From Teretinema zuelzerae (GTDB taxonomy: Bacteria; Spirochaetota; Spirochaetia; Treponematales; Treponemataceae), in NCBI RefSeq assembly GCF_021021555.1, contig NZ_JAINWA010000003.1, positions 868,001 to 932,000 of the forward strand: DNA of 64,000 bases, given 5' to 3'. Shown in pieces: positions 20,260 through 31,504 of this stretch. Within the stretch, counting starts at the first letter, position 1; each line of letters starts with the position of its first letter. Position numbers and translations under genes: made by a program. The notes beneath the pieces were generated by a model that did not search any database, was not told the origin of the DNA, and saw only the letters and a list, made by a program, of their open reading frames with translations.

Positions 20260-20274
20260 AAAATGGCGCCTAAA

Positions 20275-20310
20275 AAGCTGTTCGGCCCCCCGGTCGAACG
20301 GCTTTTTTTT
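20275..20310 (+). terminator. intrinsic terminator of guaA
   Basis: AGCTGTTCG pairs with CGAACGGCT (one G-U) around a GCCCCCCGGT loop, followed by eight T. It starts about 15 bases after the guaA stop and isolates the sigma/caspase/Ton operon downstream. Confidence 0.92.
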
Positions 20311-20401
20311 GCGCGTTCGCCCCGGTCGAGAAGGCCTGAACGTGATACACTTATTCGACCCCCGGGAAACGGAAATTTTCTCTCCAGTCCGGTAACACTC
20401 C

Positions 20402-20430
20402 TTGAAAGACGATGTGTTATATCCTATGTG
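20402..20430 (+). promoter_or_regulatory. candidate promoter of the sigma/caspase/Ton operon
   Basis: TTGAAA (20402-20407) is spaced 17 bases from TATGTG (20425-20430), 20 bases before the sigma gene ATG. A GGAAC-type ECF motif also occurs at about 20436 but is too near the start to serve it. Weak evidence. Confidence 0.3.
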
Positions 20431-20450: not shown

Positions 20451-20975
20451 ATGAACGCAACGGGAACGATCACGATCGATGATTTCGGCGAACTATACGG
20501 CAAATACGGCCCGATGGTTCTGCGAAGGTGCCGCTTCCTCCTGAAAGACGAGGAACGAGCGCTGGACTGCATGCAGGACACCTTCGTCCGCATCATCGAA
20601 CGGCGCGAACGGCTTTCCGGCGTCTGTTCCAGCTTGTTTTACACAGTGGCGACCTCCGTCTGCATGAACCGCATACGGTCCGACAGATTGCGCAGAGGCC
20701 CGCAGATTGAAAACCTGCTGCACGAGATCGAGGACTCGAAGTCCGCCCGCCATGAAGAAATCGTGGATACGGCGGCCCTCCTCGATCAGATATTCGAGGA
20801 TACAAAGGATGATACACGAACTATGGCTGTTCTCCACTATGTAGACGGTTTAACGCTGGAAGAAACGGCGGAGGAAATGAGAATGTCGGTTTCGGGAGTC
20901 CGCAAACGGCTCGCCGTGCTGAGAAAGAAGGCTTTGCGGGACGCAGGGACTTTACAACAGGGGGCGTCGAAATGA
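20451..20975 (+). CDS. ECF-type sigma-70 family sigma factor
   Basis: 174 residues. The sigma2 region at about 10-80 (YGPMVLRRCRFLLKDEERALDCMQDTFVRIIE) has the D-x-x-Q-D-T-F signature; sigma4 at about 115-165 has a helix-turn-helix (LTLEETAEEMRMSVSGVRKR). There is no sigma1.1 or sigma3, as in extracytoplasmic-function sigmas. The ATG at 20451 opens the conserved part; 13 upstream in-frame residues look noncoding. It overlaps the next gene by 4 bases (ATGA) and heads a nine-gene operon, so it probably drives that operon in response to an envelope signal. ECF group not assigned. Confidence 0.9.
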   Translation: MNATGTITIDDFGELYGKYGPMVLRRCRFLLKDEERALDCMQDTFVRIIERRERLSGVCSSLFYTVATSVCMNRIRSDRLRRGPQIENLLHEIEDSKSARHEEIVDTAALLDQIFEDTKDDTRTMAVLHYVDGLTLEETAEEMRMSVSGVRKRLAVLRKKALRDAGTLQQGASK

Positions 20976-21742
20976 AACAACATGCGCTTCATACGGAACA
21001 AATAGCATTGGGCGAACGCGCGAATCCCGGAACGATGGACGCGGAACTGAGGGAACTCCATGCTTCAACCGCTGATATTCTTCGCCGCTATCCGGCCGAC
21101 CTGATAGAAACGGAAATACGGGCCCGGCTTTCGCACGATACGGAACGCAGGGCGAACGCTGCAGGTTCGCGGTTCCGCGCCGTTCAAACGATGGGATTCG
21201 CAGCGGCAGCCTGCCTGGTTGTCGCCCTCGCGGTCGGCGTCGTTCAAACGTCCGGAAGCGCATCGCTGGAAGGCAATATGGCCGATAACGGAGTTCTGCA
21301 TCTTGCAGACCGAGCAAAGGGAAACGGCCCGATCCTCTTCGTTTACCGTAAGGAAGGAAGCGAGGCCGTACTGCTGCGGCAGCGGACGAAGGTATCAGAG
21401 GGAGACGTGCTCCAGCTCAGCTACGTAGCCGCGGGAGACGCCTTCGGCGCCATCATTTCGATCGACGGCAACGGAGTCATCACCCGGCACTACCCGGACG
21501 ACGGCCTCATGGCGGGCCAGCTCCGGACGAACGGCGAAATCCCCCTGGACTTTTCCTATCAGCTCGATTCGGCCCCGGCGTACGAGCGGTTCATATTCAT
21601 CTCGGGAAAGCGGAACTTCTCCGTTTCCAGCATCATAACATCGATACAAAACGCGGGCCGCTTCGCTCTCGCCGCGACCTCCGACCTCTCCGGATATCTT
21701 CCGGCGGGAGTGAGGATGACCGAAATCCTCCTTTTCAAATAA
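20972..21742 (+). CDS. single-pass membrane protein, possible anti-sigma factor with DUF4384-like domain
   Basis: 256 residues. About 70 cytoplasmic residues (acidic, helical, no His/Cys zinc-finger motif) precede one membrane helix at about 73-91 (MGFAAAACLVVALAVGVV). The outer domain of about 160 residues (VSEGDVLQLSYVAAGDAFGAIISIDGNGVITRHYP, then IPLDFSYQLDSAPAYERFIFIS) resembles the DUF4384 domains that accompany caspase-type proteins. Overlap with the sigma gene, topology and position all suggest an anti-sigma or signal-sensing role, but there is no recognised anti-sigma motif, so this is inference. The caspase gene starts 10 bases downstream. Confidence 0.7.
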   Translation: MKQHALHTEQIALGERANPGTMDAELRELHASTADILRRYPADLIETEIRARLSHDTERRANAAGSRFRAVQTMGFAAAACLVVALAVGVVQTSGSASLEGNMADNGVLHLADRAKGNGPILFVYRKEGSEAVLLRQRTKVSEGDVLQLSYVAAGDAFGAIISIDGNGVITRHYPDDGLMAGQLRTNGEIPLDFSYQLDSAPAYERFIFISGKRNFSVSSIITSIQNAGRFALAATSDLSGYLPAGVRMTEILLFK

Positions 21743-21752
21743 GGACTTCTGA

Positions 21753-24149
21753 ATGAAAACACCGTATCTTGCCCTCGCCCTTTCCGCCGCGGCCTTATTA
21801 ACGGCCGCGCAGGAGGGATTCTGCCAAACGACCGAGAAATCCCCCATCGACCGGTACGCCCTGTACGTAGCCTCCAACAACGGCGGCCCGGGACGGGAAG
21901 TGCTCCGCTACGCGGGATCGGACGCCGAGAAGGTAGCGCAAACCCTCTCCGAAATCGGCGGAGTTCCCGCCGCGAAAAGCATACTCCTGATAGACCCCGC
22001 CCGCTCCGATGTGGATCTCGCCTTCGAGTCCATCGCCGCCGATATCTCGCGAAACAAGGGAAAGGCGCGGCGCAGCGAGTTCATATTCTATTATTCGGGA
22101 CATTCGGACGAAGCGGCGCTTCTTCTGGGAACCGAAACCTACGGATACGGAGAGCTGAAAGCATCCCTTGGAACGGTGCCCTCCGATGTGCACGTCGTCA
22201 TGCTGGATTCCTGTTATTCGGGCAATTTCGTCCGAACCAAGGGCGGTTCGCGGCAAAAGCCTTTTTTGATGGACGATTCGACCATTGTCCAGGGACACGC
22301 CTATCTTTCGTCCAGTTCCGAATACGAAGCTTCGCAGGAATCCGACAAGCTCCAGGCCTCCTATTTTACCCACGCTCTGGTAAGCGGCCTGCGGGGAGCG
22401 GCGGACAGCTCGGGAGACCGGAGGGTTTCGCTCAACGAACTCTACCATTACGCCTTCAACGAGACGCTGGCGAAAACCGAATCCAGCACGATCGGCCCTC
22501 AGCATCCTTCCTATAACATCACCCTTGTCGGTTCAGGCGATCTCGTCATGACCGATATTTCGGACGCCGAGTCCATGATTCATATACCGGCGGATCAGGA
22601 GGGAGCGTATTTCTTCCGGAACAGCGGGGGCATCCTGGTTTCCGAGATAAACAAGATGAAGGGCACCGAAGTAGCCCTCGCCCTTCCGTCCGGCTACTAC
22701 CAGGTTTCTCTGGTGACTCCGCTCGCCGCGAGCCAGGGTTCCATCCGCCTTGAGCGGGGACAGAAAATCTCGCTCGACCCCTCGCACTTTTCCTCCGTTA
22801 TCCGCAGCCAGGGCAGAGCCCGGGGAATGACGGTGCAGCCGCTTTCAGGCGAGGAAGAAGAATACGATCCCTACGGCGAGTTCGATCCGAACAACGAAGC
22901 CGATCTCGCCGCCGTGCGCGAATACGCCAGAGCGAGGGCCGAGGAAGCCGATCATGCATCCCGGCAGGAACAGGCCGAAAACCAGGCGGGAGCAGGACTT
23001 CCCGGTCCGGGAACGAGATGGGAACCGATCAGCGTGTCCCTGTTCCCCGGATTAGAATTTCCCCAAAATCCCGGGGACTACGTCAACGTCGCGGTAAGCC
23101 CCTTCATGCTTGCCAACCGGCATATCAACGGCGTGCAGGCGGCGGGCTTCATGGCGATGAACGACGGATCGCTGCAGGGAGTTCAGGCGGCGGGCTTCAT
23201 GGCGACGGCCACCGGCGTCATCAACGGAGTGCAGGCCGCGGGCTTCATGTGCACGGCGGATTCGGATCAAACCATGAACGGCATGCAGGCGTCCGGTTTT
23301 CTCAACAGCGTCGAAGGATCCCTCCACGGACCCCAGTTCGCCGGATTCCTTAATTCGATCAGCGGCGACCTCAAGGGATTCCAGGCAGCCGGCTTCATGA
23401 ACAGCGGAGAAGGATTCATCGACGGCGGACAAGCCGCCGGCTTTCTCAACAGCGCGGACAAGGGCTTTAACGGATTGCAGGCGGCGGGCTTTCTGAACTC
23501 CGCCGGCGAAGTTTCCCGCGGCGTCCAGATTTCAGGCTTCATCAACGTAGCGAATGAAATCGAAGGCGCCCAGATCGGCATCGTCAACATAGCCAAGAAG
23601 AATCAGGGCGTCGCGCTGGGTCTGCTCAACTTTATCGCGGACGGCATCATGGCAGCCTCCGTCTACGGAGACACCAACGGAATGGGATGGGCGCAGTATC
23701 AGGGCGGAACCAAGCAGTTCTTCACCACCTTCTGCCTGGGAACGCCGGTCAGGTGGGATCGGCAGTGGGACTGGGACTTCACCGTTTTCGGCTTCGGAGT
23801 CGGGCATCGCCTGTTCGAATTCGGCAACATGAGCGTCGATGTCGAAATATTCTCGAAGCAGGTTATAGACACGAAAGAATGGGATAGCTACGGAGAGCTT
23901 GTGATCGAGACCGACGAGGAAGCGGAAAGATTCGGCTGGGAGCTGGCGCAAATGCAGATTCCTTCGGCGCGGATCACCGGCAACATGCATATCGCAGACC
24001 ACCTGAGCTGCTTTGCGTCCTGGAACGCCGACGTCCTGATCCCTGGATACAACGATAAGGCGTTCACCTACGGAAAAACCGGAACGCTCCAGGAAATGAA
24101 CGACAATCTGGCGGTGTATACCAGCTGGTCCTTCGGCGTGAGGTTTTAA
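21753..24149 (+). CDS. exported caspase-family (C14) protease with surface-repeat C-terminus
   Basis: 798 residues. A signal peptide (cleavage near FCQTTE) leads to a caspase/metacaspase p20-like domain at about 33-270: catalytic His in FYYSGHSDE (H117) and Cys in MLDSCYSGNF (C154), both present. A middle region (about 270-400) has no known domain; an acidic, Glu/Ala-rich linker follows. Residues about 455-625 are eleven repeats of 14-18 residues around GVQAAGFMN, like the LA_2272-type surface repeats described in Leptospira, probably a beta structure. The end (WSFGVRF, aromatic last residue) looks like an outer-membrane beta-barrel C-terminus. Probably secreted or displayed on the outer membrane. 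Substrate unknown; it lies between the possible anti-sigma and the TonB-dependent receptor. Confidence 0.9.
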   Translation: MKTPYLALALSAAALLTAAQEGFCQTTEKSPIDRYALYVASNNGGPGREVLRYAGSDAEKVAQTLSEIGGVPAAKSILLIDPARSDVDLAFESIAADISRNKGKARRSEFIFYYSGHSDEAALLLGTETYGYGELKASLGTVPSDVHVVMLDSCYSGNFVRTKGGSRQKPFLMDDSTIVQGHAYLSSSSEYEASQESDKLQASYFTHALVSGLRGAADSSGDRRVSLNELYHYAFNETLAKTESSTIGPQHPSYNITLVGSGDLVMTDISDAESMIHIPADQEGAYFFRNSGGILVSEINKMKGTEVALALPSGYYQVSLVTPLAASQGSIRLERGQKISLDPSHFSSVIRSQGRARGMTVQPLSGEEEEYDPYGEFDPNNEADLAAVREYARARAEEADHASRQEQAENQAGAGLPGPGTRWEPISVSLFPGLEFPQNPGDYVNVAVSPFMLANRHINGVQAAGFMAMNDGSLQGVQAAGFMATATGVINGVQAAGFMCTADSDQTMNGMQASGFLNSVEGSLHGPQFAGFLNSISGDLKGFQAAGFMNSGEGFIDGGQAAGFLNSADKGFNGLQAAGFLNSAGEVSRGVQISGFINVANEIEGAQIGIVNIAKKNQGVALGLLNFIADGIMAASVYGDTNGMGWAQYQGGTKQFFTTFCLGTPVRWDRQWDWDFTVFGFGVGHRLFEFGNMSVDVEIFSKQVIDTKEWDSYGELVIETDEEAERFGWELAQMQIPSARITGNMHIADHLSCFASWNADVLIPGYNDKAFTYGKTGTLQEMNDNLAVYTSWSFGVRF
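23128..23640 (+). repeat. protein-coding GVQAAGF repeat block
   Basis: Eleven consecutive units of 14-18 codons in the caspase gene. Each contains a G-x-Q-x-x-G-(F/I) core (GVQAAGFMAM, GMQASGFLNS, GPQFAGFLNS, GGQAAGFLNS, GVQISGFINV) and decays to GAQIGIVNI and GVALGLLNF at the end. DNA copies are diverged except for the core, so the block is old and held by selection on the protein. Confidence 0.9.
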
Positions 24150-24184
24150 CGCTCCCGTCGATTCCCTGAGATTAAGAGGACAAC

Positions 24185-26752
24185 ATGAAAAAAATCGTAT
24201 CAGCGGCCCTGGCCGCCTGGGCGGCAGCCCTTCTGGGAGCCGCCGGGCTCGAGGTGCGCGTACAGGACAGGGAGCTCGAGCTTCCTCTGGAAGGCGTGAT
24301 CCTGCAGATTTCCCTTTCCGGTCCGACCCTCCCCGGCGGCATGACGATCAAGGGAGAAACCGGCGCCGACGGTTCGGCCGTTCTGGAAATTCCGGACGAG
24401 TTCGCCCGCGGCGTGCTGGGGGCTCAGTTTCCCGGCTATGAAACCGCGCGATTGCCGGTACGGCCGGGAGCATCCGAAATCCTCGTGGAAATGAATATCT
24501 CGGGCGTCATCGAGGGAAAGGAGCTGGTGGTCGAACGCAAGGCTCCCGGCGTCGCGGATGAAGAGTCGGGCGTATCAGTCGCGATGGACAAAAAGGACAT
24601 GGAGACGACGGCGAACATCGGCCTCGTGGAGGACGTTATGAACTCCATCAAGACCCTTCCCGGAGTCACCTACGCTGGAGGATGGAACGCGCAGCCGTCC
24701 ATCCGCGGCGGCTACCCCTCGCAGATGGGAACCGTTCTGGACGGCGTCTACATCATCGCTCCCTTCCACTGGGGCGGAGCGTTTTCGATCTTCAATCCGA
24801 ATATGGTGGAGAGCGCGAAAATGTCCCACGGCATTTTTTCAGCGCGCTACGGCCGGGCAATGTCCGGACTGCTGGAAGTAACGACGATCAACCCGAAAAG
24901 CGAAGCCTTCCGTTTCGACGTGATCAACTCGACCACGTCACTGGAAGCCTTCGCCCAAATCCCGCTGGGTAAAAAAGCGGGGCTGTTCACCGGGGGAAAG
25001 ATCACCTATATGGAGACGCTCGCCTTTCTGAACGATGAAATACTTAAAAGCGAACCGAAGCTCGGCGAAACCATTCCGACGATGCCGTTCATACGCGACA
25101 TGTACGCGAAGCTCTGGTTCACGCCCGAGCCCGAGCTATCCTTTTCCTTCAACGCTTTTTTCGGAAGCGACGGAATCGGAACCTTTTTCGACGGAACGAC
25201 CGACGGAATCCGCACGGTTTCTTCCTTCGACTGGCTCAACCTGATGGGCTTCGCGGCCGCCCATGCGCGATGGATGCCCGGCGACCGGACGGCGATTAAA
25301 GCACTTGCGGCCTATAACAACAACACGATGAACTTTTCCTTCGACAACGCGATATCGGGAACCCGCGCGTACAGCGGCTCTTTTCTGGATGCGTTCGATA
25401 CAACCTACGACGCGGACGACGACGGCCTGATCCGGGGCAGCTCCGAATACGCGATGGACGGCATCGACTTAAAAGTCGACTCGGTACAGACTATTCAGCA
25501 GCTTCAGGGAAAACTCGAAACCGATATTCTGATTTCAGGATCGCATATCGTCTCCTTCGGCGCAGACGAAGTGTTCCAGTTTTTCACCTCGGATCAGGAC
25601 GTAAACGGCATGACGGTGATCGGCGAAGCTCCCGGCCAAACGTACTATCCGGTTAACTCAAGCCTCAATCTCGAAGGAAACCGGGTGCTCAACACTTCAG
25701 CCTTCGCCCTGTGGTCGTTCGGGAACGAAAACTCGACGCTCCGCGGAGAGGCGGGAATTCGCGGGGACCACTTCTATCTCTGGAACAAGAACTTCGCCAT
25801 CAATACCTGGCCCGTAGCGAATCCGCGGGCAAGCGCCGAGTGGACGCCGATCCGCGACGAGGGAATGCTGGAAGCCCTCACCTTCTCCGCCGGCACGGGA
25901 TTCTTCTCCATGGTGCCGCTCGACTCTCTCGCGGCGGACGAACAGTTCGAGATAGAAAGCTTCAAAATCGGCCCTGACCGGTCCTGGTTCCAGATTATAG
26001 GAGCCCAGGCGGACCTGGCCGACGACTGGACGTTCAGAATCGAGGGATACTACAAACAGTACTTTAACCGGCTGTATTTTACGAACAGGTACATCTACAA
26101 CGAATCCGGAGAACCCGAAACGCTCACCTACGACATCCATTCGGACGGCAAGGGGTTTTCCGCCGGCTTCGATCTCATGCTGCAAAAGAAAAACGGCCGC
26201 CATTTCGACGGGTATCTCAGCTGGTCGTATGTCGTGACGAAATACTACAATCCCGCTTCTCCCCAGGAAGAAGGCGATACGAGCGCTTACGGAGAACCGC
26301 TGGAGGAATGGTTCTACCCCTCCTTCCATCGTTTTCATTCGCTCAACCTGATCGCCAACTGGAAGCCGGTTTCAGGCCTTACCCTTACGGCGAAGGCCAG
26401 CCTCGCGACCGGCGCGCCCCGATCCAAACCCGGCGACATCACCGCGACGGGGATCGAATACAACGAAGCGATCATCGAGCGCTACACCCGGAGCGAAACC
26501 TACGACGAAGGCTTGCGGAACGGAATATCATGCCCGGTGGATTTCCGGATTTCCTACGCTTCGTATAAACCGGGCAGCAAAATTCGCACCGAGATTTATT
26601 TCGCCCTCGAAGACGTATTCGTGAATCTCTATAAGGCGAAAGGAAACACCTCCTTCGATCCGTATACCGGAAAGGAAATCGAAAACAGCGATTCCGCCGA
26701 CTATAATATCGGGATACCGACTCCCTCGATCGGCTATAAACTCAGTTATTAA
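24185..26752 (+). CDS. TonB-dependent outer-membrane receptor
   Basis: 855 residues. A signal peptide (end near GAAGLEV) is followed by a carboxypeptidase-regulatory-like beta domain at about 25-110 (GETGADGSAVLEIP, ISGVIEGKELVVERK). The plug domain has VMNSIKTLPGVTYAGGWNAQPSIRGGYPSQ and the LDGVYI motif, then a beta barrel with many aromatic strands ending in IGYKLSY. It should import, or sense, a ligand across the outer membrane using the Ton complex encoded four genes on. The ligand is not evident. The 35-base gap after the caspase gene is the widest in the operon; an AAGAGG lies before the ATG. Confidence 0.9.
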   Translation: MKKIVSAALAAWAAALLGAAGLEVRVQDRELELPLEGVILQISLSGPTLPGGMTIKGETGADGSAVLEIPDEFARGVLGAQFPGYETARLPVRPGASEILVEMNISGVIEGKELVVERKAPGVADEESGVSVAMDKKDMETTANIGLVEDVMNSIKTLPGVTYAGGWNAQPSIRGGYPSQMGTVLDGVYIIAPFHWGGAFSIFNPNMVESAKMSHGIFSARYGRAMSGLLEVTTINPKSEAFRFDVINSTTSLEAFAQIPLGKKAGLFTGGKITYMETLAFLNDEILKSEPKLGETIPTMPFIRDMYAKLWFTPEPELSFSFNAFFGSDGIGTFFDGTTDGIRTVSSFDWLNLMGFAAAHARWMPGDRTAIKALAAYNNNTMNFSFDNAISGTRAYSGSFLDAFDTTYDADDDGLIRGSSEYAMDGIDLKVDSVQTIQQLQGKLETDILISGSHIVSFGADEVFQFFTSDQDVNGMTVIGEAPGQTYYPVNSSLNLEGNRVLNTSAFALWSFGNENSTLRGEAGIRGDHFYLWNKNFAINTWPVANPRASAEWTPIRDEGMLEALTFSAGTGFFSMVPLDSLAADEQFEIESFKIGPDRSWFQIIGAQADLADDWTFRIEGYYKQYFNRLYFTNRYIYNESGEPETLTYDIHSDGKGFSAGFDLMLQKKNGRHFDGYLSWSYVVTKYYNPASPQEEGDTSAYGEPLEEWFYPSFHRFHSLNLIANWKPVSGLTLTAKASLATGAPRSKPGDITATGIEYNEAIIERYTRSETYDEGLRNGISCPVDFRISYASYKPGSKIRTEIYFALEDVFVNLYKAKGNTSFDPYTGKEIENSDSADYNIGIPTPSIGYKLSY

Positions 26753-26766
26753 GGAAGGATCGGCAA

Positions 26767-27573
26767 ATGATGCACACAAGGCAGACGAACAGAAAAGGCA
26801 AGACGCAGAGGCCCGCAGCAAGCAGGAGCATTTCGGCGGCGGCCGCTCTGCTGGTCGCGGCGGCGGTTATCGCCGCAAGCGGCTGCGCGTCAAACGCGTC
26901 GAAACGTGAAATCAACGGCTGGAAGCTTACAGAAACCGAAGAAGGCGCCGCCTTGGTCCGCTACGAAAAAGACCGGTTGCGAATCCTCGGAGAAATATCG
27001 GAAGAAGAAACAGAAGGCCGGGTCTTTACCGTTCGCGAGGTGCGCTGGTTCAGCAACTGGAACGACGGCTGGACAGAAGCGGTTCTGTTCGCCGACGGAA
27101 CAGCCCGCCTGGTGCCGAGCGAAAAAAAAGGAGAGACGGCGGTATTCGAAGGGCCGGTCCTGCTCGACGAGCCCTATTCGGCCGCGATCCGCTACCGCGA
27201 TACCGTTATCGTCGGAGCGGAAGCTGCGAGCGCGTTTAAAAGAAGGCTCGACCGCATCGAGGCCGCGGTCGAATTTCTCTCCGCCCGGGAAGAATTGCGC
27301 GAAAGGGCGAAGAGCCGGAAAACCTTCATCCGCGGCGCAGGCTCGCTTCTATTCCCCGAAGTCTACGGCTATCCGGACGGATCGCGGCCGGGCCCGAAAC
27401 AGGCCGATAACCGATCGAAGGCCGAAGGAATTTCCTGGGATCTGGCGTACAGCGCGGAATATATTCCCGCCGAGCTTGCGGAAATCCGGAACAGCGGAAC
27501 CCTATTCCGCGACTGGGAAGAAACCGCGGATTTGTTTTACTTTATATTCATCATGAGGAGCGATACAAAATGA
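26767..27573 (+). CDS. lipoprotein of unknown function in the Ton operon
   Basis: 268 residues, with a long basic N-terminus (about 20 residues) and a hydrophobic stretch ending in lipobox AASGC (Cys at about 40). The mature part has beta-like segments (KLTETEEGAALVRYEKDRLRILGEI, TVREVRWFSNWNDGWTEAVLF) and a Lys/Arg-rich helical region. I do not recognise the family. It lies between receptor and ExbB and overlaps exbB by 4 bases, so a periplasmic accessory of the Ton system is a reasonable guess. An internal Met nearer the hydrophobic stretch is not available, so the 26767 start stands. Confidence 0.75.
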   Translation: MMHTRQTNRKGKTQRPAASRSISAAAALLVAAAVIAASGCASNASKREINGWKLTETEEGAALVRYEKDRLRILGEISEEETEGRVFTVREVRWFSNWNDGWTEAVLFADGTARLVPSEKKGETAVFEGPVLLDEPYSAAIRYRDTVIVGAEAASAFKRRLDRIEAAVEFLSAREELRERAKSRKTFIRGAGSLLFPEVYGYPDGSRPGPKQADNRSKAEGISWDLAYSAEYIPAELAEIRNSGTLFRDWEETADLFYFIFIMRSDTK

Positions 27574-28220
27574 CCGAAGAATGGAGCCTTATTCACCTGT
27601 TCAACCTCGGAGGGGCCTTTATGTGGCCGCTGCTCGCCTTTTCCGTCGCGACAATCGCGCTCGTGATCGAGCGCATCGCGTACCTGCTGTACCACAGCCT
27701 GAACGTTTCCAGGCTGAGAGACGAAGTTTCTTCGCTGATACGCGAGGGAAAAAGAAGCGAGGCTCTCGCGCTTTTGCAGAACGCGCCGCGCAAACTCACC
27801 TGCGCCTCTATCTTCCTGGCCCTCGTGTCGAACGCGAAGCACGGCGAAGCGCGAATGGAAAAAGCCGCGGAGGCCGAGGCGCGCGAACGCATACGCCGGC
27901 TTGAAAACGGATTCAATTATCTGACGGCCCTCGCCTCGCTCGCGCCTCTGACGGGATTCCTGGGAACGGTCTCCGGCATGATCGGCGCCTTCAAGTCGAT
28001 CGCGAGCGCGACCGAAGTGAACGCCCAGCTCGTCGCTAACGGAATCTACGAGGCGCTGATCACGACCGTATTCGGCCTGTGCATCGCGATTCTCGCCCTT
28101 GTGGCGTACAATCTGCTCATCCAGCGGGTGGACACCTTCGCCGCCGATATCGTGAAATCGATCAGCGATCTCACCAGCGATCTCCTCGAGCATGCGGACG
28201 GGGAAGGAAGAGGGGAATGA
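27570..28220 (+). CDS. exbB: ExbB/TolQ/MotA-family proton channel protein
   Basis: 216 residues. Three membrane segments: FMWPLLAFSVATIALVIERIAYLL near the N-terminus, then LTALASLAPLTGFLGTVSGMIGAF and LITTVFGLCIAILALVAYNLL. The last two match the conserved ExbB/TolQ channel motif (P-L-x-G-x-x-G-T-V-x-G-M). In the family, ExbB with ExbD couples proton flow to TonB. Linked by 4-base overlaps to the lipoprotein and the first exbD. TolQ identity is not excluded, but the tonB gene downstream favours ExbB. Confidence 0.93.
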   Translation: MTEEWSLIHLFNLGGAFMWPLLAFSVATIALVIERIAYLLYHSLNVSRLRDEVSSLIREGKRSEALALLQNAPRKLTCASIFLALVSNAKHGEARMEKAAEAEARERIRRLENGFNYLTALASLAPLTGFLGTVSGMIGAFKSIASATEVNAQLVANGIYEALITTVFGLCIAILALVAYNLLIQRVDTFAADIVKSISDLTSDLLEHADGEGRGE

Positions 28221-28627
28221 TCCGTCTTCCGGAACGGCGAAAAATCGACGACCCCGGCTCTTCCGGAGCGCTGAACGATCTTTCGTTTATACTGATCATC
28301 TTTTTCATCGTCATCGCGGGATTCAACATCAACAAGGGATTCCTGCTGACGCTCCCGGACGCCGAGCGGCCGAGAATCGTGCAAACCGACGATCTGGTCA
28401 AATGCAGGATCGACGCGGCCGGCACGATTTCGATCGACGGAAACGCGCTGAGCGTTGAAAAGCTCGAGAACCTGCTTGTCGAAAAAAAAGCGAAGTGGCC
28501 GAACATGACCTTTCTCCTGATCATAGACGAGGATTGCGCATGGGAGCACGTCGTACGGGTGATCCATGAAGTTCGGAAGCTCAGGATAGAAAATTTCAGC
28601 TTTAAAATGGACGGAGAACGCAGATGA
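28217..28627 (+). CDS. exbD: ExbD/TolR-family protein, first copy
   Basis: 136 residues. A short basic start is followed by one membrane helix (LNDLSFILIIFFIVIAGF) and a periplasmic domain (KCRIDAAGTISIDGNALSVEKLE). The helix carries the N-D-L-S form of the conserved Asp motif of the family, so the proton-carrying Asp is present. The ATG overlaps the exbB stop (ATGA). It differs clearly from the second copy next door, so the two probably form a mixed ExbD pair. Confidence 0.9.
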   Translation: MIRLPERRKIDDPGSSGALNDLSFILIIFFIVIAGFNINKGFLLTLPDAERPRIVQTDDLVKCRIDAAGTISIDGNALSVEKLENLLVEKKAKWPNMTFLLIIDEDCAWEHVVRVIHEVRKLRIENFSFKMDGERR

Positions 28628-29028
28628 TAGACCTGAAAAGACGAAACCGCAGGCCGCTCATCGCCATGTCTTCGATGTCGGACATCGGATTCCTGCTGCT
28701 CATCTTCATCATGCTGATTTCGCTCATTAATCAGCGCTATGAAGAACCGATCGAATATCCTGAAGCGAAGCTTCTGGAAAAAACCCAGGAAAAGGATAAT
28801 CTGGAAATCTGGATCGAAGCGGGCGGAGCAGTCTCGGTGGAAGGAAATCGGGTCACGGGCGAACAGCTTGAACACATTATCGCGCAGTCCCTTGCGGAAA
28901 CGCCGGGGATACGGGTGCACGTCATCGCGGATAAAAACGCGCCGTACCGACACATCGATTCGGTCGTAAAGGTATTGCAGAAACTCCAGCACCGCGTCGT
29001 CAGTTTCGTCGTGAAGGAGGAACTGTGA
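28624..29028 (+). CDS. exbD: ExbD/TolR-family protein, second copy
   Basis: 134 residues, again one N-terminal membrane helix with the channel Asp (MSSMSDIGFLLLIFIMLISL) and a periplasmic domain (GAVSVEGNRVTGEQLEHIIAQSL, VHVIADKNAPYRHIDSVVKVLQKL). The motif S-D-I-G-F-L-L matches canonical ExbD better than the first copy. 4-base overlaps on both sides. Confidence 0.92.
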   Translation: MIDLKRRNRRPLIAMSSMSDIGFLLLIFIMLISLINQRYEEPIEYPEAKLLEKTQEKDNLEIWIEAGGAVSVEGNRVTGEQLEHIIAQSLAETPGIRVHVIADKNAPYRHIDSVVKVLQKLQHRVVSFVVKEEL

Positions 29029-29630
29029 ACAGGGAATGGATTATCCGACACCGCATGCCGGTGTTCCTCGCCGCGGCGGTCACGCTGCACGCGCTCGCGT
29101 TTCTTTTGATACGGTTCGCGATTCCCGCCGCCGTTGCCGAGGAAGAGCCGGAATACGCAGTGCTCAAGCTCGTCGATGTGGAGGAATTCAGGCCCCCTCC
29201 CCCGCCGAAGGAAGAAACGGTCATGCTCTACCAGAGGCCGGAAGCCTCGGAAGAAATAGTGGAAACGGCGAAGGCGGTCATTGAAACGGACGACAAGGCA
29301 TACGACATCGTGGATGCCCAGCCGGAAATCGACTATCTGCCGCAGCACAAGATTTCGCAAATCCCTGAAGTGCCCTCGCGCGAGGTGCTTGCAAAAATCG
29401 TGTACCCCCCGATCGCGCTCAGGCAGAAAATCGAGGCCGTCGTGTATCTGGAGCTGTTCATAGATCAGACGGGCAAGATACGGAAAGTGCAGATTTTAAA
29501 GGATCCCGGCAACGGATTCGCGGAAGCGGCGGTCGCCGCCCTGGAAGGGGTTGTTTGCAAACCGGCGGCGGCGAACGGGGTGCCGGTCGCCGTGCGGTTC
29601 AGGTACCCGGTTCGCTTCGCCTTGAACTGA
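29025..29630 (+). CDS. tonB: TonB energy transducer
   Basis: 201 residues. A single N-terminal membrane helix (PVFLAAAVTLHALAFLLI) includes the conserved His. A very short proline stretch (RPPPPPKEE) and acidic spacer precede a C-terminal TonB domain (VVYLELFIDQTGKIRKVQILKDPGNGFAEAAVAALEG, PVAVRFRYPVRF). The YP in IVYPPIALRQK matches the domain's start. The spacer is short for spanning a periplasm. Last gene of the operon and presumably dedicated to the receptor upstream. Confidence 0.93.
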   Translation: MNREWIIRHRMPVFLAAAVTLHALAFLLIRFAIPAAVAEEEPEYAVLKLVDVEEFRPPPPPKEETVMLYQRPEASEEIVETAKAVIETDDKAYDIVDAQPEIDYLPQHKISQIPEVPSREVLAKIVYPPIALRQKIEAVVYLELFIDQTGKIRKVQILKDPGNGFAEAAVAALEGVVCKPAAANGVPVAVRFRYPVRFALN

Positions 29631-29728: not shown

Positions 29729-31504
29729 TTACGATTTCGAGCCGATGTGCATGCTCTTTTTGAAGTTGTAAAGGTAGCGCTTGATTTTCTGGCTCGCGGT
29801 TTTTTCGAACTTGTCGATGAACTCGACCCGGTCGATGCGGGAAATCTTGTTGACGTTCTGGTTCACGAAGAACTTGATCTCGTTCAGAATCTGCTCTCTT
29901 CGATACGCGAGAGCCCTGCCGGCGTCGTTCGCGGCGGCGGATACGGCTTCTCCCATCTGGGCGCCCATCTGTCGAGCCTGTTCGACAAAACCGGAATTCG
30001 CGGAAGCATCGCCCTGAGAGATAACTCCCTGGGCGGCCTTCGCCGCGATGTCGGCGGCGAGTTTCTCCTCGTCGAGCTGGACGATCGCGACGAGGGAGGA
30101 GTTGTCTCCTTCCACGACGAGAGAGTCCGCGACGAAGGGATGCTGGTTGAGCACGAACTCGATATCCTCGGGATAGATGTTTTCCCCGGACGAGCCGAGA
30201 ATCATGTTCTTGGATCTTCCCTTCAGCGACAGCCGCACGCCCTTTTTATCCATGACGCCGAGGTCTCCGGTGCGGAACCATCCGTCGTCGGTGAAAACGG
30301 AAGCGGTCATTTCAGGATCCTTGTAATAGCCCTTCATGACGTTCGGACCCTTCACGACGACTTCTCCGATTCCGGTTTCGGGATCGGGATCGAGGAGCTT
30401 CAATTCGATTCCGGGCATTGCAGGACCGACTGAGCCGGGAACGGTGATCTTCGGGCCGGAGCCGGCTAACAGCGGAGCGGTTTCGGTCAATCCGTAGCCG
30501 ATCGCGTAGGGGAACTTCGCTTCCTTCAGGAATGTTTCGACGACAGGATCTACTTTCGAGCCGCCGATGCCGAAGAACTTGATCCGCCCGCCGAATGTTT
30601 TTTTCAGGGACTTTCCCGCGATCCGGTGCAAAATTTTGCGAAAAAACGGCTTGGCGTACAACTTCGCGACAGCTGGTTTGGAAGTGAAGGTGGGAACGAT
30701 CTTATTTTTGTAGATTTTTTCCATGATGATGGGCACGCTCAAAATGAGGGTCGGCCGGACCTTTTTCAGGGCAGGCAGGAGGGTGCTGACGGTCGGCGCT
30801 TTTTCCAGATAGCGGACGCAGGCTCCGTTGAGGAAGAACATCAGGAAGCCGATAGTGAACTCGTAGACGTGGGAGAGCGGCAGAAAGGACAGGGCGACGT
30901 CGATTTTGTTGATGCGCTGGAAGAATTGTCCGCCGATCGCGGTGAATACGAGGTTTTTATGGCTGAGCTCGACGCCCTTGGAGCGGCCGGTGGTTCCTGA
31001 GGTGTAAATAATGGACGCGGTGTCCTCTTCTTCGATGCGGATTTCCCCCGGCGTTCCGGTGCGGGTTTCGGCTCCGAGAGAGAGTGAGAAATCCTCGATT
31101 CTGAGGATGCGGTTTATGCCGAGAGATGCGGGATCGGGAACCTTCTCCAGAAGGCGGGCCGAACCGATGAGGATCGAGGCGCCGGAGTGCTTGATGCAGG
31201 TTTCGATTTCTTTTTGGCTGAAGTCCGGCAGAAGGGGCACGGCGATCGCGCCCATTGTGACGATGGCGAAATAGCTGACGCCCCAGTTCGGCGCGCTGGT
31301 GCTCAGAATGACGACGCGGTCGCCTTTTTCCACTCCGAGCCTGTAGAGCAGGGCGCGGGTTTCCTCAACTCTTGCGCCGAATTCTGCGTAGGTGATGCAG
31401 TCGCCGGAAACGAATCCGAGCGCGGGACGATCAGCGAATTTTTTAAGGCTGTTGGCCAGCATGGCCGGAAAGGTATAAGTTCCAAGGTCGTCGATAGTTT
31501 GCAT
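29729..31504 (-). CDS. AMP-forming long-chain acyl-CoA synthetase-like protein
   Basis: 591 residues of the ANL (acyl-adenylate-forming) family. The P-loop-like motif YTSGTTGRSKG is at 167-177, then GYGLTETAPL, GWFRTGDLG (ATP-binding Asp), and LKGRSKNMI. A helical Ala-rich stretch (about 500-545) interrupts the C-terminal lid, which resumes at FFVNQNVNKISRIDRVEFID and ends in KTASQKIKRYLY, with the catalytic Lys expected there. It should activate fatty acids as acyl-CoA. Monocistronic as far as seen. Chain-length specificity cannot be told. Confidence 0.88.
   Translation of the reverse strand: MQTIDDLGTYTFPAMLANSLKKFADRPALGFVSGDCITYAEFGARVEETRALLYRLGVEKGDRVVILSTSAPNWGVSYFAIVTMGAIAVPLLPDFSQKEIETCIKHSGASILIGSARLLEKVPDPASLGINRILRIEDFSLSLGAETRTGTPGEIRIEEEDTASIIYTSGTTGRSKGVELSHKNLVFTAIGGQFFQRINKIDVALSFLPLSHVYEFTIGFLMFFLNGACVRYLEKAPTVSTLLPALKKVRPTLILSVPIIMEKIYKNKIVPTFTSKPAVAKLYAKPFFRKILHRIAGKSLKKTFGGRIKFFGIGGSKVDPVVETFLKEAKFPYAIGYGLTETAPLLAGSGPKITVPGSVGPAMPGIELKLLDPDPETGIGEVVVKGPNVMKGYYKDPEMTASVFTDDGWFRTGDLGVMDKKGVRLSLKGRSKNMILGSSGENIYPEDIEFVLNQHPFVADSLVVEGDNSSLVAIVQLDEEKLAADIAAKAAQGVISQGDASANSGFVEQARQMGAQMGEAVSAAANDAGRALAYRREQILNEIKFFVNQNVNKISRIDRVEFIDKFEKTASQKIKRYLYNFKKSMHIGSKS

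Follow-up and report, generated by a model that had tools for sequence, protein, structure and literature searches.

A candidate envelope switch of spirochaetes that links a caspase to a sigma/anti-sigma pair, with TonB uptake as a possible output

DegS is the site-1 protease in regulated intramembrane proteolysis (RIP) of the RseA/RpoE type. Site-1 cleavage of RsiP provides a further comparison (PMC8844934), and in FecI-FecR-FecA signalling, RseP cleaves FecR (PMC8144685). Sigma factors of extracytoplasmic-function (ECF) group ECF54 have CHAT, subtilase and carboxypeptidase genes as neighbours, and they were described without an anti-sigma factor (PMC8999054). Roles of bacterial caspases beyond defence and presumed cell death are largely open. 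Here we analyse a nine-gene locus of the spirochaete Teretinema zuelzerae, located at positions 20451 to 29630 of a window of 64,000 nucleotides (contig NZ_JAINWA010000003.1, positions 868,001 to 932,000). An ECF sigma factor, a one-pass membrane protein (p2) and an exported caspase are encoded ahead of a TonB-dependent receptor (TBDR), a putative lipoprotein and a TonB/ExbB/ExbD energising system. We are inclined to see in the locus an envelope switch of spirochaetes in which a sigma/anti-sigma pair is linked to a caspase and TonB uptake is one output.

The first three genes are found together wherever this caspase was detected in the phylum. Profiles of the caspase domain and of p2 were used to search 393 Spirochaetota genomes. 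The caspase-domain profile yields 58 strong matches in 54 of these genomes, clearly apart from its weak matches to other caspases, and the sigma and p2 genes lie directly upstream of the caspase in every strong locus (54 of 54 genomes). Conversely, only three of the 61 strong p2 matches have no strong caspase match on the same contig. Two of the three are at contig edges, and the third is broken in both genes: this decayed triad (G351:C3:69298-70245) has a stop codon in p2 and a truncated caspase, as if the pair had been lost together. Evolutionary distances of sigma, p2 and caspase correlate at 0.71 to 0.83, a value that no permutation reached. Because the triad is obligate and its distances are correlated, sequence comparison indicates that it is an old, jointly inherited unit. 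The counts are not independent events, since many of the genomes are metagenome-assembled (MAGs) and several Treponema entries are closely related to one another. Literature searches, with most subscription journals outside their reach, found no description of a sigma/p2/caspase triad.

Beyond the triad, the neighbourhood varies. A scan with the caspase protein finds nine loci, all in Treponema or Spirochaetaceae MAGs. Each of the eight that extend beyond the caspase has TBDR, exbB, exbD, exbD and tonB in the same order; in the ninth, the contig stops inside the caspase. Within the window's family, only some members have the Ton module next to the triad. The gene order across spirochaetes, whose conservation a first-pass annotation of the sequence had proposed as a check, is thus kept far beyond chance, with the first three genes as the constant unit and the Ton genes following in part of the family only.

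The sigma gene (20451..20975, plus strand, as are all features given here for the window) encodes Sigma70 regions 2 and 4 only, as identified with Pfam and NCBIfam models (PF04542, Sigma70_r2, 3.9e-9; PF08281, r4_2, 1.8e-6; TIGR02937 above cut-off). It adjoins an anti-sigma gene, an arrangement typical of ECF sigma factors. Its open reading frame (ORF) opens at 20412 with an alternative start at 20451, and the latter is preferred because a conserved promoter at 20392-20422 overlaps position 20412.

The second protein, p2 (20972..21742), has a cytoplasmic N-terminus, a single transmembrane segment at about residues 73-91 and then a periplasmic part. In its model by AlphaFold 2 (AF2), a beta domain that begins at residue 121 is predicted with confidence, at a predicted local distance difference test (pLDDT) score of about 90, and residues 53-117 form a low-confidence stretch. 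A fold search with p2 gave weak immunoglobulin-like matches only. The window protein has a weak anti-sigma match below cut-off (NF052375, 1e-7) and no zinc motif of its own. The zf-HC2 zinc finger is the classic anti-sigma domain, and 2 of 51 p2 homologues match it, which together with the one transmembrane segment fits a membrane anti-sigma factor of the zinc-associated (ZAS) type. DUF4384 (PF14326) is matched by 16 of the 51, so the label "DUF4384-like" that p2 had first received applies to the family and is not evident from the window protein alone. We infer that p2 is a one-pass anti-sigma factor that binds the sigma factor. The p2 protein of one locus (L097) has an intact HxxxCxxC zinc motif; the caspases of this locus and of another (L096) have Kelch repeats instead of the usual C-terminus.

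The third gene (21753..24149) encodes a caspase with a predicted N-terminal export signal. It matches Peptidase_C14 (PF00656, 1.2e-6, over the cut-off), no other protein of this family was found in the genome, and all 45 diverse homologues examined match the same family. These matches place it among the caspases, which are defined by a p20 fold with SGH and D-x-C catalytic motifs. The catalytic residues His117 (22101..22103) and Cys154 (22212..22214), which the first-pass annotation had placed at the right codons, are invariant in these 45 members. The catalytic domain of the window protein is 63-67% identical to those of Treponema relatives; over the full length of the protein, identity is about 40%. 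Foldseek pairs the N-terminal part with caspases. The C-terminal part (23082..24146) comprises LA_2272-type repeats (NCBIfam, 4.6e-5) and a predicted beta-barrel ending in Phe; it is rich in strands in the AF2 model, and its best Foldseek matches are membrane barrels of eight strands, among them OprF, NspA and OmpA. A terminal aromatic residue is frequent across the family. The C-terminus as a whole is variable and may consist of repeats, Kelch or CsgG domains. A model of modest quality thus suggests that the caspase is anchored in the outer membrane by a C-terminal barrel. A search of solved structures with caspase and receptor profiles and a search of plasmids with the caspase domain gave no match. 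Similar caspase sequences presumably exist in myxobacteria, which we take as a lead only.

A short motif is common to p2 and the caspase. The p2 linker, a stretch of low pLDDT just outside the membrane, has only three conserved columns among variable neighbours: R114 (48 of 51), K116 (51 of 51) and G117 (50 of 51), which in the window form R114-A-K116-G117 (21311..21322). The possibility that DUF4384 proteins carry R-x-K-G in general was rejected, as 1 of 20 such proteins outside the triad has the motif immediately before the domain. Caspases self-activate by cleavage in the loop past the catalytic Cys. In the window caspase this loop contains R161-T-K163-G164 (22233..22244), a candidate self-activation site. 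Among the 57 sequences in which the region could be read, R-x-K-G starts seven residues past Cys154 in 47 and K-G is present in all. Orthocaspases cut after basic residues (PMC6426788). Because the motif is common to the p2 linker and the caspase loop, the caspase may be the site-1 protease of p2, and the simplest reading is that one specificity, R-x-K|G, would serve self-activation and then p2 cutting.

The following sequence of events can be proposed. At the inner membrane, p2 would hold the ECF sigma factor. The exported caspase, probably anchored in the outer membrane by its barrel, would be activated by an envelope or outer-membrane signal and mature by cutting itself at R161-T-K163|G164. 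It would then cut p2 at R114-A-K116|G117, just outside the membrane, making this motif the candidate for the site-1 cleavage by a periplasmic protease that is characteristic of RIP. A site-2 protease would complete the proteolysis of p2 and thereby release the sigma factor, which would bind GTRACA-N16-KTGTYWNAT and transcribe its own operon, here including the receptor, ExbB, two ExbD proteins and TonB. The proteolysis step that the first-pass annotation had suggested in general terms would thereby acquire a specific candidate site. What the computation supports is an obligate triad, conserved catalytic residues, a shared promoter before sigma, TBDR and exbB genes, and the two motifs. The fuller proposal, in which a bacterial caspase acts as a site-1 protease, activates itself at R-x-K|G, cuts the identical motif in the anti-sigma factor and so relays an outer-membrane signal to transcription across the phylum, is put forward tentatively, with chances a little short of even.

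The promoter consensus, GTRACA-N16-KTGTYWNAT, was read from DNA upstream of sigma genes across loci. In the window it is represented by GTAACA-N16-GTGTTATAT (20392..20422), which matches 14 of 14 positions; the same element lies upstream of sigma in many relatives. The core form GTRACA-N15-17-GTGTTA occurs once in the 3.6 Mb genome, at 20392, before the sigma gene. Upstream of sigma, most members of the window's family and many distant loci have matches of 13 or 14 of 14; shuffled upstream regions average about 10 and never exceed 13. Within 1.16 Mb of loci, matches of at least 13/14 located 25-120 bases upstream precede 13 of 16 TBDR genes, 4 of 16 exbB genes and 26 of 64 sigma genes, the last a lower bound because some of the 64 ORF starts were called too early. 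By comparison, such matches precede 5 of 754 other genes, and the Markov background is 5.9 per Mb. The self-controlling sigma circuit that had been suggested at first is thus supported by an ECF-type promoter before the sigma gene itself.

The same promoter marks Ton genes that are remote from the triad. In three genomes (G239, G197 and G301), the Ton module is wholly or partly away from the triad, and the unlinked TBDR or exbB gene (L104, L105, L106) has the promoter 36-51 bases upstream. A further unlinked receptor in G308 (L142) has it 15 bases before the start. Because unlinked modules bear the same promoter, the association of triad and Ton genes is regulatory and not just one of adjacency, so the functional link suggested by the first-pass annotation stands. 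Sequence evidence suggests that Ton genes are probably under the control of the sigma factor, in cis or in trans. The TBDR gene of most Ton-bearing relatives has a promoter copy of its own about 50 bases upstream. Separate sigma promoters of this kind were sought inside the window operon and none was seen: the best match upstream of TBDR is 9/14. Given this match and a gap of 35 bases, a single long transcript from 20392 is likely in the window. A scan of the region with the Sigma-70 consensus gave no useful promoter.

Other motif targets in relatives are outer-membrane-like or exported proteins, the exported ones being an M16-type peptidase, a DUF4097 protein and small proteins, and the set looks like an envelope regulon. 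An autoregulated promoter together with such a regulon, both recognised in silico, is in keeping with an ECF pathway under RIP control. Outer-membrane-like proteins without a caspase domain are encoded upstream of the triad in L070 and L077, and another, with LA_2272-type repeats and likewise without a caspase domain, adjoins the triad in L071 (L071:11846-13042). In L070 and L071, a sigma motif is just upstream of the outer-membrane-like protein. A relaxed form of the motif has four occurrences in the window's genome, including one before the operon's sigma gene and one with no substantial ORF behind it. A third precedes a tandem TetR-type regulator with two TetR_N domains (G000:C1:1329696; L101:1501-2767), and TetR-type relatives in two other Treponema genomes (L151 and L158; 28% identity with one) are likewise behind the motif. 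The fourth, a close variant with spacing 15, is found 21 bases before a second ECF sigma gene (G000:C1:707926; L112:1927-3178), which is followed by an anti-sigma gene with an HxxxCxxC zinc-finger-like motif. Cross-talk between the two sigma factors is possible.

Several points weigh against the proposed switch or its mechanism. Cleavage, anti-sigma binding, anchoring, export and use of the promoter are predictions throughout. The K-G-G beside the active-site Cys and the R-x-K-G of p2 could each be structural, their likeness being coincidence; the Arg is missing in 10 of the 57 caspases, and the p2 Arg is kept in most of those. Foldseek E-values for the caspase are 0.003 or worse, and in a few distant caspases the repeats or the barrel-like end are missing. 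Residues 150-272 of the caspase fall below pLDDT 50, and therefore the loop after Cys154 cannot be judged from the AF2 model. Finally, one Ton module (G290, L103) has no such promoter.

These points leave room for an alternative that we consider unlikely, yet worth serious attention, namely that the caspase is an effector and not the trigger. The sigma factor, freed either when DUF4384 binds a ligand or by a different protease, would raise the levels of an outer-membrane caspase and the Ton genes, and the caspase would process or degrade other envelope proteins. This would agree with the place of the caspase gene, which shares the operon of the sigma gene and its promoter, with the envelope proteins among the other motif targets (outer-membrane-like, M16-type peptidase, DUF4097) and with a C-terminus that varies among repeats, Kelch and CsgG, as is often the case in effectors. 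However, it leaves unexplained why p2 is absent without this caspase (contig edges and one decayed copy aside) and why p2 has a matching R-x-K-G.

The Ton genes of the window comprise a TBDR (24185..26752) with a CarboxypepD_reg-like N-terminus, a Plug match (2e-9) and no STN domain, followed by p5, a probable lipoprotein (26767..27573; N-terminal hydrophobic segment with ASGC), ExbB (27570..28220; PF01618, 6e-29), a first ExbD (28217..28627; PF02472, 3e-18), a second ExbD (28624..29028; PF02472, 1e-19) and TonB (29025..29630; PF03544, TonB_C, 3e-13), so that the components of a TonB/ExbB/ExbD energising system are all present. The genome has two plug-domain receptors and this TonB is its only TonB_C protein found, which means that the system was wrongly called dedicated. 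No TonB was detectable in six triad genomes tested (G273, G287, G232, G215, G338 and G203), in which the triad is complete. For that reason the receptor's supposed role as sensor finds no support, and Ton seems to be an output within one lineage: the sequences suggest that the module is a lineage-specific addition to the switch.

The same observations bear on cell-surface signalling of the FecIRA type, in which the TonB receptor would sense a ligand and tell p2 directly, with the caspase as an accessory. One operon does hold a sigma factor, a one-pass anti-sigma factor and a TonB receptor. Nevertheless, nine receptors examined contain Plug and, in some members, CarboxypepD_reg-type domains and no STN domain, and no FecR domain is found in 51 p2 proteins, a difference from FecIRA that the first-pass annotation had correctly perceived. 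Moreover, triads are complete where TonB is undetectable, and the Ton module is often not near the triad. This explanation is accordingly quite improbable. We attach equally little likelihood to chance, by which an autoregulated sigma/caspase unit happens to lie before an unrelated, separately regulated Ton operon. It would account for triads without Ton and for a Ton module that adjoins the triad in some family members only, but not for unlinked Ton modules of several species that bear the same promoter. A module for anti-phage defence or abortive infection, with the caspase as killer of the cell, is very improbable, and this part of the earlier interpretation is not supported: caspase-like proteases do occur in some defence systems, but PADLOC gives no match, the caspase has an N-terminal export signal and a barrel-like end, the evolutionary distances shared by the triad genes fit joint inheritance, and motif targets are uptake and envelope genes.

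The nine ORFs have the order and strand first reported and run head-to-tail. Overlaps of four bases join sigma/p2, p5/ExbB, ExbB/ExbD1, ExbD1/ExbD2 and ExbD2/TonB, and the other three junctions are gaps of 10, 35 and 14 bases, so the junction coordinates bear out the claim of four-base overlaps and gaps of at most 35 bases. A strong intrinsic terminator of guaA (20272..20307), with an RNA fold of -24.4 kcal/mol (z = -3.8) and a T-run, indeed separates the operon from guaA, and the gene 3' of the operon (29729-31504) is convergent.

Several Ton-like arrangements elsewhere were also observed. The p5 gene was not found in Treponema Ton loci; one distant homologue (51 bits) is located between TBDR and exbB in G177 (L108). 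That locus (G177:C1:33700-41950) has two receptors, the p5 homologue, ExbB, ExbD, ExbD and TonB in a row, with no sigma-motif match of at least 13/14, and is possibly a relative of the ancestral Ton module. Two distant cases again connect the triad with the outer membrane or with proteins that energise it. In one (G174, L073), a plug-domain receptor with a sigma motif is upstream of the triad. In the other, from another family of the order (G245, L082), genes for ExbB, ExbD, a proline-rich TonB-like protein with no Pfam match and a protein of 1809 amino acids with OmpA and Ig-like domains come after the caspase, so that the triad may have been joined to an energised envelope system independently.

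The caspase is ancient and always paired, and its role is directly testable, given one substrate, one cut site and one promoter, all three predicted. If the proposal is true, caspases gain a bacterial signalling role, switching transcription from the envelope, and spirochaetes have an outer-membrane-linked envelope response that also runs TonB uptake in Treponema relatives. Regarding the earlier interpretation as a whole, self-control, the link to Ton and the difference from FecIRA survive, whereas the receptor as sensor, defence and a "dedicated" Ton system do not.

The locus resembles several known systems in part. Like FecI-FecR-FecA (PMC9249621), it combines an ECF sigma factor, a one-pass anti-sigma factor and a TonB receptor as target gene. 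However, STN and FecR domains are absent here, an exported caspase is the invariant third member and the receptor is optional. The proposed likeness to RIP of the RseA/RpoE type consists of a membrane anti-sigma factor cut outside the membrane and an envelope regulon. Here, the site-1 enzyme would be a caspase, a cysteine protease of clan CD, and not DegS or signal peptidase, and the periplasmic domain is DUF4384. The nearest published caspase link is ECF54, in which caspase-fold (CHAT) proteases are predicted to control an ECF sigma factor, whereas the present locus has a membrane anti-sigma factor and an exported Peptidase_C14 protein. Orthocaspases share the Peptidase_C14 domain, the His-Cys dyad and, as presumed from the motif, a basic P1 residue, but the spirochaete protein is exported, carries surface repeats and a barrel-like domain in fusion, and belongs with a sigma/anti-sigma pair. 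Anti-sigma signalling is also tied to the outer membrane in the dual membrane-spanning anti-sigma factors of Bacteroides (PMC13088901). In that case the anti-sigma factor itself is described as spanning both membranes, whereas here the barrel-like part is on the caspase.

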